The notes beneath the pieces are model-generated. The model saw only the letters and a program-made list of their open reading frames with translations. It made no database searches and was not told the DNA's origin. DNA of 64,000 bases from Geodermatophilus sp. DSM 45219 (GTDB taxonomy: Bacteria > Actinomycetota > Actinomycetes > Mycobacteriales > Geodermatophilaceae): contig NZ_FNIQ01000002.1 of NCBI RefSeq assembly GCF_900104025.1, positions 124,001 through 188,000 of the forward strand, in the 5' to 3' direction. Shown here piece by piece: positions 18,589 through 61,157 of the stretch; the stretch's first letter is position 1, and every line of letters starts with the position of its first letter. The position numbers and the translations under genes are program-made.

Positions 18589-18664
18589 GGGCGGGCGTCC
18601 TCCCGGCTCGGCGGTGTGGGGGAGGACGCTCGCACGGCGACGGCGGCACGTCATCGACCAGCTC

Positions 18665-18680
18665 TACCGTCATCCCCAGC
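18665..18680 (-). repeat. Degenerate copy of the dif-flanking polar motif
   Basis: The plus strand reads TACCGTCATCCCCAGC; the minus strand, GCTGGGGATGACGGTA, differs from GTTGGGGATAACGGTA at two positions. It sits in the 101-base gap between the SnoaL and MarR-GNAT genes and points the same way as the other copies left of dif. It is the weakest member and could be chance. Confidence 0.4.
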
Positions 18681-18689
18681 AGGGGCCGT

Positions 18690-23096: not shown

Positions 23097-23239
23097 CGCG
23101 ACGGGCGGTCGGCCGGTCAGGACCGCCCAGTTGTACGCGCCCAGCAGCCGCTCGCCGTCCCCGGTGACGGCGTGGGTGACCTGCTCGTCGGCGACGTGCA
23201 CCTGCCCGGGGGGTTAGCGTCCGACTCGTCACGTCCTCG

Positions 23240-23257
23240 ACCGTTATCCCCAACTGA
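23240..23257 (-). repeat. Dif-flanking polar motif, copy 2
   Basis: The plus strand reads ACCGTTATCCCCAACTGA; the motif sense (minus) is AGTTGGGGATAACGGT. It lies in the 244-base gap after the thioesterase gene, outside any supported gene. Its core and 3' TGA match copy 3 exactly over 18 bases. Confidence 0.75.
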
Positions 23258-23340
23258 ACCGCCGTACGAGCGACAGCCGAGCCAGCAACGACGCAGGAAC
23301 GCCTCGTCGCCGACGGACTGGACCGGCTCCGACCGGGGGT

Positions 23341-35600: not shown

Positions 35601-35623
35601 CGCGCGCGGCCGCCCTCCCTTCG

Positions 35624-35641
35624 ACCGTTATCCCCAACTGA
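35624..35641 (-). repeat. Dif-flanking polar motif, copy 3
   Basis: The plus strand reads ACCGTTATCCCCAACTGA (35624-35641), identical to copy 2 over all 18 bases; the sense strand is minus. It lies between the gcvP terminator and the convergent cupin gene. Confidence 0.8.
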
Positions 35642-35749
35642 CGGTCCATGGGCGATCCCCGGGCGGGCCGTCGTCCGGGGAAGGAGCACTCCGCCCCGAC
35701 CGGCCGGCGTCCCTGCGGTGACCACCGGCGTCGGACCGGACCGGTCGGT

Positions 35750-36384: not shown

Positions 36385-36486
36385 CCTCGCCGGAATCGCC
36401 GGGGAGGGGGCGCGAGCACGGTGTGCTGCCGCAGCGGTGGCGGCGGAGTGGTCACCGACGGGCGCCCGGAGGACGCCTCAGCACAT

Positions 36487-36507
36487 ACTACCGTTATGCC
36501 CAACAAA
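36487..36507 (-). repeat. Dif-flanking polar motif, copy 4
   Basis: On the minus strand this reads GTTGGGCATAACGGTAGTA, preceded by GGTTT. It has the G-to-C variant in the centre (GGGCATAACGG), shared with the copy at 59054, and the same GTAGTATG tail as the copy at 59991. It is intergenic, 50 bases past the end of coaA. Confidence 0.8.
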
Positions 36508-36556
36508 CCGGCAGATCACTGCAAGGGAAGAACTCCATCGATCGGGGAGCGGGCCC

Positions 36557-44077: not shown

Positions 44078-44192
44078 GACGGGGAGTCAACCGCACGCAG
44101 CTGTGAGCGGGCCGCGTGACGCGGCCGGTCACGGGGACGGCGGACCGCGCCGATGTCCAGGGTGCCGACTCCGACGTCACAGCGGCCAATGA

Positions 44193-44207
44193 TCCGTTAT
44201 CCCCAAC
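44193..44207 (-). repeat. Dif-flanking polar motif, copy 5 (nearest to dif)
   Basis: The plus strand reads TCCGTTATCCCCAAC; the minus-strand core is GTTGGGGATAACGGA. It lies in the AT-rich gap between the M50-like and VOC genes, 1.4 kb left of dif. The GTTTGTTG upstream flank resembles the flanks of the 36490 and 59054 copies. Confidence 0.75.
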
Positions 44208-44213
44208 ATACAA

Positions 44214-44978: not shown

Positions 44979-45224
44979 ATGTCGAGGACCGTGAACGTCC
45001 ACGAGGCGAAGACCCACCTGTCACGGCTACTGGAAGCAGTGGAAGCAGGGGAGGACGTCGTCATCGCCCGAGCGGGCAAGCCGATTGCCCGGCTCGTCGC
45101 GGTCGTCGCCCGGACCGAGCCCCGAGTGCCGGGGTCGTGGCGCGGTCGGATGGTCATCGCCGACGACTTCGATGAGACACCCGAAGACCTGATCGCCGCC
45201 TTCCACGGTGACGCAGACGAGTGA
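44979..45224 (+). CDS. Phd/YefM-family antitoxin
   Basis: The 81-aa protein SRTVNVHEAKTHLSRLLEAVEAGEDVVIARAGKPIARLVAV is a full Phd/YefM DNA-binding domain (T.N.HEAKT.LS.L...V..GE...I...GKP.A.L). The C-terminal tail RGRMVIADDFDETPEDLIAAFHGD is the toxin-wrapping region. It autoregulates and neutralises the PIN toxin encoded next, overlapping its start by four bases. The ATG follows an operator-like region. Confidence 0.92.
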   Translation: MSRTVNVHEAKTHLSRLLEAVEAGEDVVIARAGKPIARLVAVVARTEPRVPGSWRGRMVIADDFDETPEDLIAAFHGDADE

Positions 45225-45595
45225 CCCTGCTGCTGGATACGCACGTCCTGCTGTGGTGGCTGGCGGACGACCCGCGCCTGACCCCGGCCATGCGAACGGC
45301 GATCGCGGACCCGTCGACGGCGGTCATGGTGTCCGCGGCGTCGGCGTGGGAGGTGGCGATCAAGGCTGCGGTCGGCAAGCTCACGATGCCTGACGGGCTC
45401 CGGCAGGAGTTGGAACAGCACGGGTTCGACGAACTGCCGATCACCGTCGAGGATGGCTTGACCGCCGGCGCGCTGCCGCGTCACCACGGCGACCCGTTCG
45501 ACCGCGTGCTGATCGCCCAGGCCGCACGCCGCAGGCTGACCGTCGTCACGGCCGACCGGCGCTTCGCGGACTACGACGTCCTGACCCTGTCCTAG
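45221..45595 (+). CDS. PIN-domain toxin (VapC family)
   Basis: The 124-aa PIN ribonuclease has LLLDTHVLLWWLADDPRL with Asp6, SAASAWEVAIKAAVGKL with Glu44, RHHGDPFDRVLIAQA with Asp94 and VVTADRRFADYDV with Asp112. These are the four acidic residues of the PIN active site. It is the cognate toxin of the Phd antitoxin and cleaves RNA (often tRNA or rRNA in this family). Its stop lies only 26 bases from the dif site, an unusual location. Confidence 0.92.
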   Translation: MTLLLDTHVLLWWLADDPRLTPAMRTAIADPSTAVMVSAASAWEVAIKAAVGKLTMPDGLRQELEQHGFDELPITVEDGLTAGALPRHHGDPFDRVLIAQAARRRLTVVTADRRFADYDVLTLS

Positions 45596-45621: not shown

Positions 45622-45649
45622 ACCTGACATAATGTGCATTATCGGCGTG
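45622..45649 (-). other. dif: dif site (XerC/XerD chromosome dimer resolution site)
   Basis: On the minus strand: XerC arm CACGCCGATAA, 6-bp centre TGCACA, XerD arm TTATGTCAGGT. The 11-6-11 layout and the inner ATAA / TTATGT bases match E. coli dif (arms GGTGCGCATAA and TTATGTTAAAT). They also match the actinobacterial consensus as I recall it, with GCCGATAAT...ACATTATGTCA. The site is non-coding and in an AT-rich pocket of otherwise very GC-rich DNA. It marks the replication terminus, where XerCD activated by FtsK resolves chromosome dimers. The matching arms are seen; function is family knowledge. Confidence 0.88.
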
Positions 45650-57771: not shown

Positions 57772-58932
57772 TCAGGCGTGGGTGACCTCGACGGCCGCGC
57801 GGACCACCGCGGTCAGGTCGCCGGTCTCCGCGTGCACCCGGCGCTGCAGGTCCGCCCCCGTGCCCCGGTGCAGGACGGCGGCCACCCCGTCGGCCACCCG
57901 CTGCTCGTCCCCGGTCCCCACCAGCGCGGGCCGGACGTGATCCAGCAGCGCGGCCACCACCTCGGCGGCCGGGGCGGGCCGCCCCGTGGCGGGGTGGACC
58001 AGGTCCGCGCCGAGCCCGGAGCGGCTGGCCCGCCAGGCGGCCATGCGGACCACCTCGCTGCGGACGGCGGGCGCCGGGGTCCCGGCCCGCCACTCCCCCG
58101 CAGCCGTGTCCACCAGCCCGCGCACCAGTCCGGCGAGCGTCACGGCGTCCTCGGCGCGCAGGGCGACGTCGGCGACCCGGACCTCGACGGTGGGCCACCG
58201 CTCGGACAGCCGGGCGTCGAAGTAGACCATCCCGGTGTCGACGATCGTCTCGGTCGCGAGCAGCTCCTCGACCAGCCGGTGGTAGGCCGCGGCGTCGGCG
58301 AACAGCTCGTTCGGGCCGGACGACGGCCAGCGGTTCCACGCCTGGGCGCGGTAGCTGGCGTGCCGGCTGTCCCGGCCCAGCCAGAACGGCGAGTTGGTGG
58401 TCAGCGCGGTGAGCACGGGCAGCCACACGCGGATGCGGTTGAGGACCGCCACGCCCTCCTCGTCGTCCTCGACCGCGACGTGCACGTGGCAGCCGCAGGT
58501 CAGCTGCTCGGCGGCGGTGAGCCCGAAGGTGTCGGCCATCTCCGTGTAGCGCCGCCCCGGGGTGTCCTGCGGCTCGACGCGCACCGGAGAGCTGGCCAGT
58601 GCAGCGACCCGGGCGCCGACCCCTCGGGCCGCCGCGTCCGCCCGCTGCCGCCAGTGCCGCAGGTCCGCGGCCACGTCGTCCAGCCCGGTGCAGACCCGGG
58701 TGCCGAACTCCAGCTGCTGGGCCTTCAGCTCGGGAACCAGGCTGCCGCGGGGATCGCCGGCCTCGTCGTCCCCCCGCTCGGCACGGTCGTGCTGCTCGAC
58801 GGTCTCCCCCTCGCCGCGCCGGGCCGCGACCTCGAGCGCGGCCGGACCCAGCGGCACCGGCCGTCCGGACGGGTCGACGACCAGCAGCTCCTCCTCGACA
58901 CCCACCGTGCGCACGCCGACCAGCATCGCCAT
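57772..58932 (-). CDS. Glutamate-cysteine ligase family 2 protein (YbdK-like carboxylate-amine ligase)
   Basis: The 386-aa protein has VRTVGVEEELLVVDPSGRPVPL at the start, the GVEEE motif of GCS2/YbdK, and ELKAQQLEFGTRVCTGLDDVAADL, CGCHVHVAVEDDEEGVAVLNRIRVWLPVLTALTTNSPFWLGRDS and VEVRVADVALRAEDAVTLAGLVRGLV. It is a weak glutamate-cysteine ligase or another carboxylate-amine ligase. An acidic insertion near residues 40-60 (EGETVEQHDRAERGDDEAGD) is longer than in most relatives. ATG at 58932. Divergent from the recombinase-like gene, with the polar motif between. Confidence 0.92.
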   Translation of the reverse strand: MAMLVGVRTVGVEEELLVVDPSGRPVPLGPAALEVAARRGEGETVEQHDRAERGDDEAGDPRGSLVPELKAQQLEFGTRVCTGLDDVAADLRHWRQRADAAARGVGARVAALASSPVRVEPQDTPGRRYTEMADTFGLTAAEQLTCGCHVHVAVEDDEEGVAVLNRIRVWLPVLTALTTNSPFWLGRDSRHASYRAQAWNRWPSSGPNELFADAAAYHRLVEELLATETIVDTGMVYFDARLSERWPTVEVRVADVALRAEDAVTLAGLVRGLVDTAAGEWRAGTPAPAVRSEVVRMAAWRASRSGLGADLVHPATGRPAPAAEVVAALLDHVRPALVGTGDEQRVADGVAAVLHRGTGADLQRRVHAETGDLTAVVRAAVEVTHA

Positions 58933-59053
58933 CGGCCCCTCGACCCGCGCGGCGAGCCGGTGAGAGACCGGACACCCGGGCGGTCGGTGCGTTCGGTGCC
59001 GGAGGCGCCGATGTCTTCGTCTGTCCGGACCACTGTTGATCGTTGTCATGTTT

Positions 59054-59073
59054 GTTCGGCATAACGGTACGAT
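59054..59073 (+). promoter_or_regulatory. Dif-flanking polar motif, copy 6, over the probable leaderless promoter of the 59080 gene
   Basis: GTTCGGCATAACGGTACGAT is the motif on the plus strand, opposite to all copies left of dif. TACGAT (59068-59073) is a good -10, and the ATG at 59080 begins seven bases later, so the transcript should be leaderless. A protein bound to the motif would block this promoter, giving simple autoregulation if the encoded protein is the binder. Confidence 0.7.
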
Positions 59074-59079
59074 CAGGTC

Positions 59080-59937
59080 ATGACCGACCGGTGGGAACCG
59101 CCCCTCCCGGCGATGCCGGCCCCGCCTCCCGAGCGGGCGTGGCAGCGCCTCCCCCCTCCTCCGGGCTACGAGGCCCAGTGGCGCCGGCTCGTCGACGCCG
59201 CCCTCGAGGTCGGCATGGGCCCGGACGCCCTGGTCGCGGAGGGCATGGACCCGATCGCGGACGCCCGCGGCTGGAAGCCGGCCACCGTCGCCCTCTACAG
59301 CAAGGTGGCCCGGTACGGCGGGATCGCGCTGCCGGTGGTGCGCACGCCGGAGCCCGACCCGCCGACCCTGGAGCTGCGGCCACTCTCCCAGATCCGCACC
59401 GAGGACCCCGAGCACCTGCGCACCGTGGCGTGGTGCGCGCTGGCCCTGGGGTGGCCCGCGACCGTCGGCCAGTTCCGGTCGCTGCGCCGCGAGCAGGTGC
59501 ACCCGACAGCACGGCGGGTGCTCGTGCGCACCGAGGACGGCGAGTGGTCGGTGCCGGGCGCGCTGACCGCTTGGCACGCCTGGGAGGAGTGCCGCGCCCG
59601 CTTCCCCGCCCTCGCCGACAGCCCGTGGGTGCTGCCCGCCCTGCGGCGCGGCCCGGGAGTGGCCTCGGCCGTGGGCGCGCGGCTGTCCTCGCAGGCGCTG
59701 CAGGTGACCTTCGCCAAGCACGCCGTGCGGACCGCGCAGCAGCTGCGGCTCACCGCTCCCCCGTCACGGCGCGAGTGGGCCGACGCGCTGGCCGTGCAGT
59801 ACCTGACCCTTTCCTACGACTCCTACCGCCGGCTGGCGCTGGCCGCGGGCGCCGAGCCGGTGGCGCCCCGCGGCGCGGTCCGCGCCAAGCGGAGCGTGGC
59901 CCGCGCCGCGCGGGAGGCGGAGGGCCGCGGCAACTGA
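59080..59937 (+). CDS. Uncharacterised DNA-binding-like protein with degenerate tyrosine-recombinase-like core
   Basis: I do not recognise a named family. The 285-aa protein begins with a Pro-rich linker (to about 30). Residues 62-81, DARGWKPATVALYSKVARYG, read as a helix-turn-helix. Residues 95-220 resemble the core of integrase-type recombinases: HLRTVAWCALALGWPATVGQFRSLRREQVHP would align with the family's TGLRxxEL box, but Pro126 stands where catalytic Arg I is expected. A possible HxxR (His214-Ala-Val-Arg217) and several tyrosines (SYDSYRRLALAAG) follow. A basic tail ends it. It is therefore probably a DNA binder without recombinase activity (inference). It is bracketed by polar motif copies on both sides, like tus next to TerB. 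Confidence 0.6.
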   Translation: MTDRWEPPLPAMPAPPPERAWQRLPPPPGYEAQWRRLVDAALEVGMGPDALVAEGMDPIADARGWKPATVALYSKVARYGGIALPVVRTPEPDPPTLELRPLSQIRTEDPEHLRTVAWCALALGWPATVGQFRSLRREQVHPTARRVLVRTEDGEWSVPGALTAWHAWEECRARFPALADSPWVLPALRRGPGVASAVGARLSSQALQVTFAKHAVRTAQQLRLTAPPSRREWADALAVQYLTLSYDSYRRLALAAGAEPVAPRGAVRAKRSVARAAREAEGRGN

Positions 59938-59990
59938 TCGCCCCCTTCCTGGGTCGTGGCTTGTCTTCCTTCCCGCACAAAAGTGCGTTC

Positions 59991-60010
59991 GTTGGGGATA
60001 ACGGTAGTAT
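59991..60010 (+). repeat. Dif-flanking polar motif, copy 7
   Basis: GTTGGGGATAACGGTAGTAT on the plus strand, 53 bases after the stop of the 285-aa gene and in the same orientation as copy 6. It has the full consensus core, and its TAGTAT tail is shared with copy 4. It lies in the gap before the convergent radical SAM gene end. Confidence 0.8.
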
Positions 60011-60047: not shown

Positions 60048-61148
60048 TCAGAGCAGCGGGAGCTGCTCGCCCGCCGGCTCGGCGACGGGCCGGCCCCTGG
60101 GCCGGGTCGCCGGCAGGCTGCCGGCGGGGAACGCGCGGTCGGCGTCGCCGGGGATGCCGGCGGGTGTCCCGTCCGCCCCGCGCGCCGCTCCCCCGGCCTG
60201 CCGGTCCAGCCCGTACCGGGCCAGCAACGGCGCGACCCGCTGCTCCAGCCAGGTCCGGTACTCCGGCGCCACCACGGCCCCCCGGCGGTAGAGCTGCTGG
60301 TAGCGCGGTACGAGCTGCGGGTGCTCGCGTGCCAGCCACGCGGAGAACCACTCCCGGGCGCCCGGACGCAGGTGCAGCGGGACGACGGTGACCCCGGTCG
60401 CGCCGGCCTCCGCGATCGCCCCCAGCGCGGCGTCGAGGTCGGCCAGCCGGTCGGTGAGGCCGGGCAGCACCGGGGCGAGGAACACCCCGCAGGACAGCCC
60501 CGCGTCGGCGATGGCCCGGACCAGCTCCAGGCGGGCCCGCGGGCCGGGCACCCCGGGCTCGAGCGAGGCGTGCAGGTCGTCGTCCCAGACGGCCAGGGAG
60601 ACGCCGAGGCCGATCGGGACGTCGCGGGCCGCCGCGGCCAGGAGCGGCAGGTCGCGCCGCAGCAGCGTGCCCTTCGTCAGGATCGACAACGGCGTGCCTG
60701 CGGCGGCCAGCGCGCCGATCACGCCGGGCATCAGCCGGTAGCGTCCCTCGGCACGCTGGTAGGGGTCGGTGTTCGTGCCCAGTGCGACGTGCTCCCGCCG
60801 CCAGGACGGCCGGGCGAGCTCGCGGCGCAGGACGTCGACCAGGTTGGTCTTCACGACCACCTGGGTGTCGAAGTCCTTCCCGGTGTCCAGCTCCAGCCAC
60901 TGGTGCGTCCCACGGGCAAAGCAGTAGACGCACGAATGCGAGCAGCCCCGGTAGGGGTTGATCGTCCAGCGGAACGGCACCGCCGAGTCGCCGGGCACCT
61001 CGTTGAGCGCGCTCTTGCTACGCACCTCGTGGAAGGTCAGCCCGGGGAACTCCGGCACCTGCACGCTGCGCAGCAGGCCGCGCATCGACGGCATGCCGGG
61101 CAGCGTCGCCGGCTCCTCGGCGTCCAGCCGCTGGGCGTCCCACCGCAT
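60048..61148 (-). CDS. Rv2578c-family radical SAM protein
   Basis: The 366-aa protein has INPYRGCSHSCVYCFARGTHQWLELDTGKDFDTQVVVK. C-x3-C-x2-C (CSHSCVYC) binds the [4Fe-4S] cluster that cleaves S-adenosylmethionine. VALGTNTDPYQRAEGRYRLMPGVI and SILTKGTLLRRDLPLL are typical of the Rv2578c/SplB-like (COG1533) group. Relatives include DNA photoproduct lyases. The start at 61148 (MRWDAQ) matches that group; MTGMRWD from 61157 is possible. An SOS-like box directly upstream suggests DNA-damage induction, fitting a repair role. Confidence 0.9.
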   Translation of the reverse strand: MRWDAQRLDAEEPATLPGMPSMRGLLRSVQVPEFPGLTFHEVRSKSALNEVPGDSAVPFRWTINPYRGCSHSCVYCFARGTHQWLELDTGKDFDTQVVVKTNLVDVLRRELARPSWRREHVALGTNTDPYQRAEGRYRLMPGVIGALAAAGTPLSILTKGTLLRRDLPLLAAAARDVPIGLGVSLAVWDDDLHASLEPGVPGPRARLELVRAIADAGLSCGVFLAPVLPGLTDRLADLDAALGAIAEAGATGVTVVPLHLRPGAREWFSAWLAREHPQLVPRYQQLYRRGAVVAPEYRTWLEQRVAPLLARYGLDRQAGGAARGADGTPAGIPGDADRAFPAGSLPATRPRGRPVAEPAGEQLPLL

Positions 61149-61157
61149 GCCGGTCAT

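Follow-up and report, generated by a model that had tools for sequence, protein, structure and literature searches.

In this study, we analyzed a 64-kb stretch of an actinobacterial chromosome (Geodermatophilus sp. DSM 45219; this whole stretch is called the window below), whose relatives are Geodermatophilus, Modestobacter, Blastococcus and Goekera, and found that it very likely contains a replication fork trap, that is, a terminator protein together with polar Ter-like sites around dif. At the genomic level, the candidate system displays every hallmark of a fork trap: polar, non-palindromic sites in the terminus that are oppositely oriented across dif, a dedicated terminus-encoded protein that co-occurs with these sites, and a ter site in the promoter region of the gene for this protein. 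We further consider it likely that the system represents a third class of bacterial fork traps, of independent evolutionary origin, and the first in Actinomycetota, in which a catalytically dead relative of tyrosine recombinases would bind polar Ter-like sites around dif and repress itself via one of them, and which in some genera would have shrunk to a two-site dyad of ~165 bp. The features of the window, which has a G+C content of 75%, are as follows.

18661..18684, minus strand: Ter-like site 1, degenerate, weight-matrix score 22.7
23235..23258, minus strand: Ter-like site 2, found by weight matrix
35619..35642, minus strand: Ter-like site 3, found by weight matrix and as a 24-mer with mismatches, in a convergent intergenic region
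36485..36508, minus strand: Ter-like site 4, exact match
44188..44211, minus strand: Ter-like site 5, innermost left site, 1.4 kb from dif, weight-matrix score 30.7
45622..45649, minus strand: dif (XerCD chromosome dimer resolution site), where the motif polarity flips; one copy in the genome
59050..59073, plus strand: Ter-like site 6, exact match, over the promoter of the 285-aa gene; proposed operator and polar barrier
59068..59073, plus strand: possible -10 element (TACGAT) that overlaps site 6 and is located 6 bp upstream of the ATG
59080..59937, plus strand: candidate terminus-site-binding protein gene, 285 aa, ATG start, directed away from dif
59987..60010, plus strand: Ter-like site 7, exact match, between convergent genes, behind the 285-aa gene

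The motif is rare and non-palindromic, has the core GTTGGGGATAACGG and is present in seven copies in the window. Exact matches to GTTYGTTSGGSATAACGGTANNAT were observed at three positions (59050-59073 and 59987-60010 on the plus strand and 36485-36508 on the minus strand); no match arose in any of 100 shuffled versions of the window. When up to three mismatches were allowed in this 24-mer, the whole 4.97-Mb genome contained four matches, all of which were inside the window. A weight matrix (score >20) revealed seven core starts, at 18667, 23241, 35625, 36491 and 44194 on the minus strand and at 59054 and 59991 on the plus strand; the best score in the reversed control was 12.6. These seven sites are evidently the copies 1-7 of a preliminary description of this DNA. 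The five minus-strand copies are located left of dif and the two plus-strand copies right of it. The dif site of the window is identical at 27 of 28 bases to that of Frankia alni (CACGCCGATAATGCACATTATGTCAAGT), the sequence of which has been published (PMC3025954), and one copy of dif was found in nearly every genome examined. A gene pair encoding a Phd/YefM-type antitoxin and a PIN-domain toxin (44979-45595) ends ~27 bp before dif. A second element, in the 20 bp upstream of the core, is weakly conserved at all sites (C at -19 and GTCG at -10 to -7), which suggests that the footprint of the motif may be nearer 40 bp. What looked like an inverted repeat in this upstream stretch is, according to a covariation test, no conserved hairpin but only the weakly conserved sequence just described.

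The 285-aa gene occurs in one copy in the genome. Its neighbours on the two sides are a gene for a GCS2/YbdK-type ligase on the opposite strand (57772-58932) and a radical-SAM gene on the minus strand (60048-61157). According to the preliminary description, the gene at 59080 is flanked by two copies of the motif, the second of them 53 bases past the stop codon. Both copies are indeed present as exact plus-strand matches (59050-59073 and 59987-60010), and the distance is correct for the core start of site 7. When the empty site was sought in the genus without the 285-aa gene, the GCS2 neighbour proved to have no close orthologue in that genus.

We then examined the distribution of the protein and the motif in 149 relatives, comprising 71 genomes with the protein, 18 members of the same family without it and 60 genomes from outside the family. 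The 71 homologues were 68-92% identical and all belonged to one family, Geodermatophilaceae. The motif core GTTNGGNATAACGG was present in each of the 71 genomes that have the protein, so no homologue lacking the motif, which the preliminary description had named as a refutation of its proposal, was found among them, and was absent from all 18 family members that do not have it. Outside the family, five matches were detected in 60 genomes, which is near the chance level; the reversed pattern, which served as a control, had two matches over all 149 genomes. Because the family genomes without the protein come from four genera (g4, g5, g8 and g10), independent evolutionary contrasts are few; nonetheless, the match is perfect. 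The number of exact cores varied from 1 to 12 per genome. When 395 genomes from across the class were searched with a profile, clear homologues were found only within the family, and a single marginal match (E 0.004, ~58 positions) fell in a long reading frame from a different family. On the best reading, the fork trap is confined to Geodermatophilaceae.

Analysis of site orientation revealed a simple polarity rule, with minus-strand cores left and plus-strand cores right of dif. Of the 330 exact cores found together with dif on one contig, 320 complied with this rule and 305 were less than 50 kb from dif. A single flip from minus to plus was observed on 68 of the 69 contigs with sites on both strands, the remaining one being a circular wrap-around. 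When one genome was taken per genus, 36 of 38 sites were concordant (binomial p ~3e-9). This polarity and the single flip on 68 of 69 contigs strongly support the terminus role that the preliminary description proposed for the gene product. Moreover, proximity to dif was a general property of the homologues: in all 65 cases with both on one contig, the gene was 7.8-23.5 kb from dif and directed away from it. In complete genomes, the distance from dnaA to the trap locus was 46-53% of the chromosome; the locus is thus antipodal to dnaA, as expected for the terminus. The GC and TA skews (400 kb, two complete genomes) gave too weak a signal to place the fork meeting point. The 330 cores include those far cores GTTCGGGATAACGG of Geodermatophilus that share a contig with dif. 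Such cores, 380-620 kb from dif, were observed in G011, G013, G017, G024 and other Geodermatophilus genomes (for example, L061). They are probably coding coincidences and not trap sites, because the one that was inspected is located in a DNA-ligase-like coding frame, although its strand fits the polarity rule.

The ten exceptions to the polarity rule comprise one circular wrap-around and nine cores in two genera, g11 (Modestobacter-like) and g7, where a divergent pair of sites is found at the promoter of the gene. In these genera, the flip of the exact cores occurs at this pair, whose members are ~135-165 bp apart and precede the gene, at a distance of 18-23 kb from dif; their traps would therefore be off-centre. 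In g11 genomes, such as L048, L055 and L056 (G056, G060 and G072), the exact-core trap was reduced to two opposed sites ~165 bp apart, one of them at the promoter. Weaker opposed partner sites are also present upstream of the gene in several Geodermatophilus and Blastococcus genomes, and the dyad may thus be an old feature.

The main surviving alternative is a polar system that organizes the terminus, in which the bound protein would orient or stop FtsK, SMC or another translocase, or would help XerCD to find dif. Polar sites, a flip at or near dif and tight clustering are what would be expected of signals steering a translocase, and the protein is similar to the tyrosine recombinases acting at dif. 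However, KOPS occur in large numbers across the chromosome and matS is a palindrome, whereas only 1-12 exact cores per genome, mostly within 50 kb, were found here. In addition, the g11 flip is farther from dif than a dif-targeting signal should allow, although a fork trap could tolerate it, and both the site at the promoter and the direction of the gene mirror the arrangement of tus and TerB. We consider this alternative unlikely in comparison with a fork trap.

The site at the promoter appeared to be a constant feature of the fork-trap locus. In all 49 distinct upstream regions, a co-oriented site was found over the homologue's own promoter, with a distance of 12-16 bp between the end of its core and the start codon (exactly 12 bp in 39 of them). 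The preliminary description had suggested testing whether each homologue carries the motif beside it; every gene tested does. In the window itself, the reported overlap of site 6 with a probable -10 element was confirmed for the possible -10 TACGAT, and the spacing between the end of the site and the ATG was corrected from 7 to 6 bases. After the core, the promoter copies read TAGTAT or TAGTGT, and the same stretch is much less conserved in the other copies. If this stretch serves as the -10 element, 6-7 bases before the ATG, the transcript would be leaderless. Ter sites within the promoter region of the terminator gene are known for both tus and rtp (PMC10331603). Through the site over the probable -10 of its gene, the 285-aa protein would repress its own expression.

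Another explanation for such an arrangement would be a transcription factor that regulates its own gene and a small regulon nearby, with the symmetry around dif as a by-product. The conserved copy over the promoter of every homologue fits this explanation, as do some other copies that are upstream of genes. However, the strand of a site is set by its side of dif and not by the adjacent gene. Based on a rough gene prediction, none of the distinct sites that were placed against it was located inside a gene, though 86% of the sequence was predicted to be coding. By the same rough prediction, the 44 distinct sites outside the gene's promoter were distributed among convergent (16), tandem opposite (14), divergent (12) and tandem same (2) positions, and the 16 sites between convergent genes therefore have no promoter to regulate. 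Because the sites of a regulator would track promoters and the motif sites track dif, the motif does not appear to define a regulon, and we regard this explanation as very unlikely.

With regard to the protein itself, no family match was detected in Pfam, NCBIfam or PHROGs with the single sequence as query, or in Pfam with 49 members. A sequence-profile search of the PDB yielded only chance matches, to a COP9 subunit. Two AF2 models were of modest confidence (pLDDT 67, pTM 0.40-0.45) and predicted an N-terminal domain of four helices (residues 17-79, pLDDT ~90) followed by a C-terminal domain that contains a beta hairpin. For the helix-turn-helix-like stretch proposed previously, predicted four-helix N-terminal domain is the more fitting description. 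When these two modest-confidence models were compared with known structures by Foldseek, nearly all top matches were tyrosine recombinases (Cre, XerA and XerH), and Tus was not among the matches listed, which, given the modest quality of the models, excludes nothing. Superposition on Cre gave a VIA-align Z of 8.8, with residues 97-188 fitting the Cre catalytic domain (86 residues superposed at 2.7 A), and hhalign against actinobacterial Xer proteins revealed a weak co-linear match (108-211, E 0.008, probability 5%). The suggested comparison with integrase and Tus folds therefore favours tyrosine recombinases, as far as predicted models are concerned.

On the other hand, the conserved catalytic R...K...HxxR...Y of tyrosine recombinases is not kept. 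The first catalytic Arg had been described as apparently replaced by Pro126; it is indeed absent, never being Arg in 49 homologues, and its position corresponds to either P126 (invariant) or T128 (T/P/A), depending on the alignment. The catalytic Lys of the hairpin is missing. A literal HxxR is present (H214-R217) with tyrosines nearby, but R217 is Gly in 3 of 49 homologues and Y249, the best-spaced tyrosine, is Phe in 10 of 49, whereas Y246 is invariant. The likeliest ancestor of the protein is a tyrosine recombinase whose catalytic activity was lost while its ability to bind specific DNA sites was retained; this ancestry is only probable because the confidence of the AF2 models is modest and the match to the Xer profile is weak. 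An active site-specific recombinase, or a domesticated mobile-element integrase, acting at the motif would account for the predicted fold and the literal HxxR with its neighbouring tyrosines, but is extremely improbable in view of these catalytic losses, the occurrence of the sites as scattered single asymmetric copies and not as paired attachment sites, and the absence of homologues from the plasmid, phage and viral-contig collections searched.

Based on these observations, we propose the following mechanism for the fork trap. The 285-aa protein would bind the ~20-bp asymmetric motif in a fixed orientation. Origin-derived forks would reach the sites from the 3' face and pass, whereas a fork that has moved past dif would meet the 5' (GTTGGGG) face and be held there until the opposite fork arrives, so that the two would fuse near dif. 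We infer arrest at the 5' face because sites acting in the opposite sense, provided that they are barriers in the first place, would stop forks short of the terminus.

Comparison with known systems revealed both similarities and differences. Like Tus/Ter of Enterobacterales, the candidate system comprises a single protein of similar size (285 aa versus 309 aa for Tus) and asymmetric sites of ~20 bp on both sides of dif with one polarity flip, and its gene is directed away from dif, as is tus in E. coli K-12. In that genome, which we read directly, TerB and TerC are both on the plus strand right of dif, and 14 bp separate the end of the TerB core from tus, compared with 12-16 bp here. The Ter sequence of E. 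coli and the motif described here also share TGTTG...TAAC in the same sense, possibly by coincidence. In contrast, the protein has no sequence similarity to Tus (hhalign E 0.27 over 22 residues and no Pfam match; PF05472 was absent from 100 relatives), its predicted fold resembles another family, the core GTTGGGGATAACGG differs in length and sequence, and the array is usually less than 50 kb from dif. RTP/Ter of Bacillus is also similar to the candidate system, as a fork trap whose terminator gene carries an autoregulating site (PMC10331603), comparable to the proposed operator described here. However, RTP works as dimers on paired half-sites (PMC10331603), whereas the site described here is a single asymmetric core and no Pfam match to RTP (PF02334) was found among the 49 members. 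In type I Tus traps, the innermost site is gene-vicinal (PMC8707476), and the exact-core trap of g11 resembles narrow two-site Tus traps in consisting of two opposed sites, one of which is at the gene's promoter. It differs from the trap of Edwardsiella tarda, whose two sites are 56 kb apart around dif, in that only ~165 bp separate its own two sites, which are located 18-23 kb from dif. Finally, XerC, XerD and Cre are similar in predicted fold and in having an alpha-helical N-terminal domain, and differ in that their catalytic set is not conserved here and that the protein falls below Pfam detection for PF00589.

The only bacterial chromosomal fork traps named in the literature searched are Tus/ter and RTP/ter, described in a few clades (PMC6549158, PMC10331603, PMC12809603). 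No report of a fork trap in Actinobacteria or Geodermatophilus was found in the literature searched, whose scope excluded most subscription journals and all preprints. Thus, the functional kind of this system is known, whereas its protein family, site and lineage are new. The cellular need for fork traps is still debated. If our reading is true, a third unrelated system in a distant phylum, with a near-identical layout around dif and a site inside the promoter, would be strong evidence that fork traps are selected for. It would also provide a new protein family for dissecting polar fork arrest, and the sister genera without the trap would offer a natural comparison.
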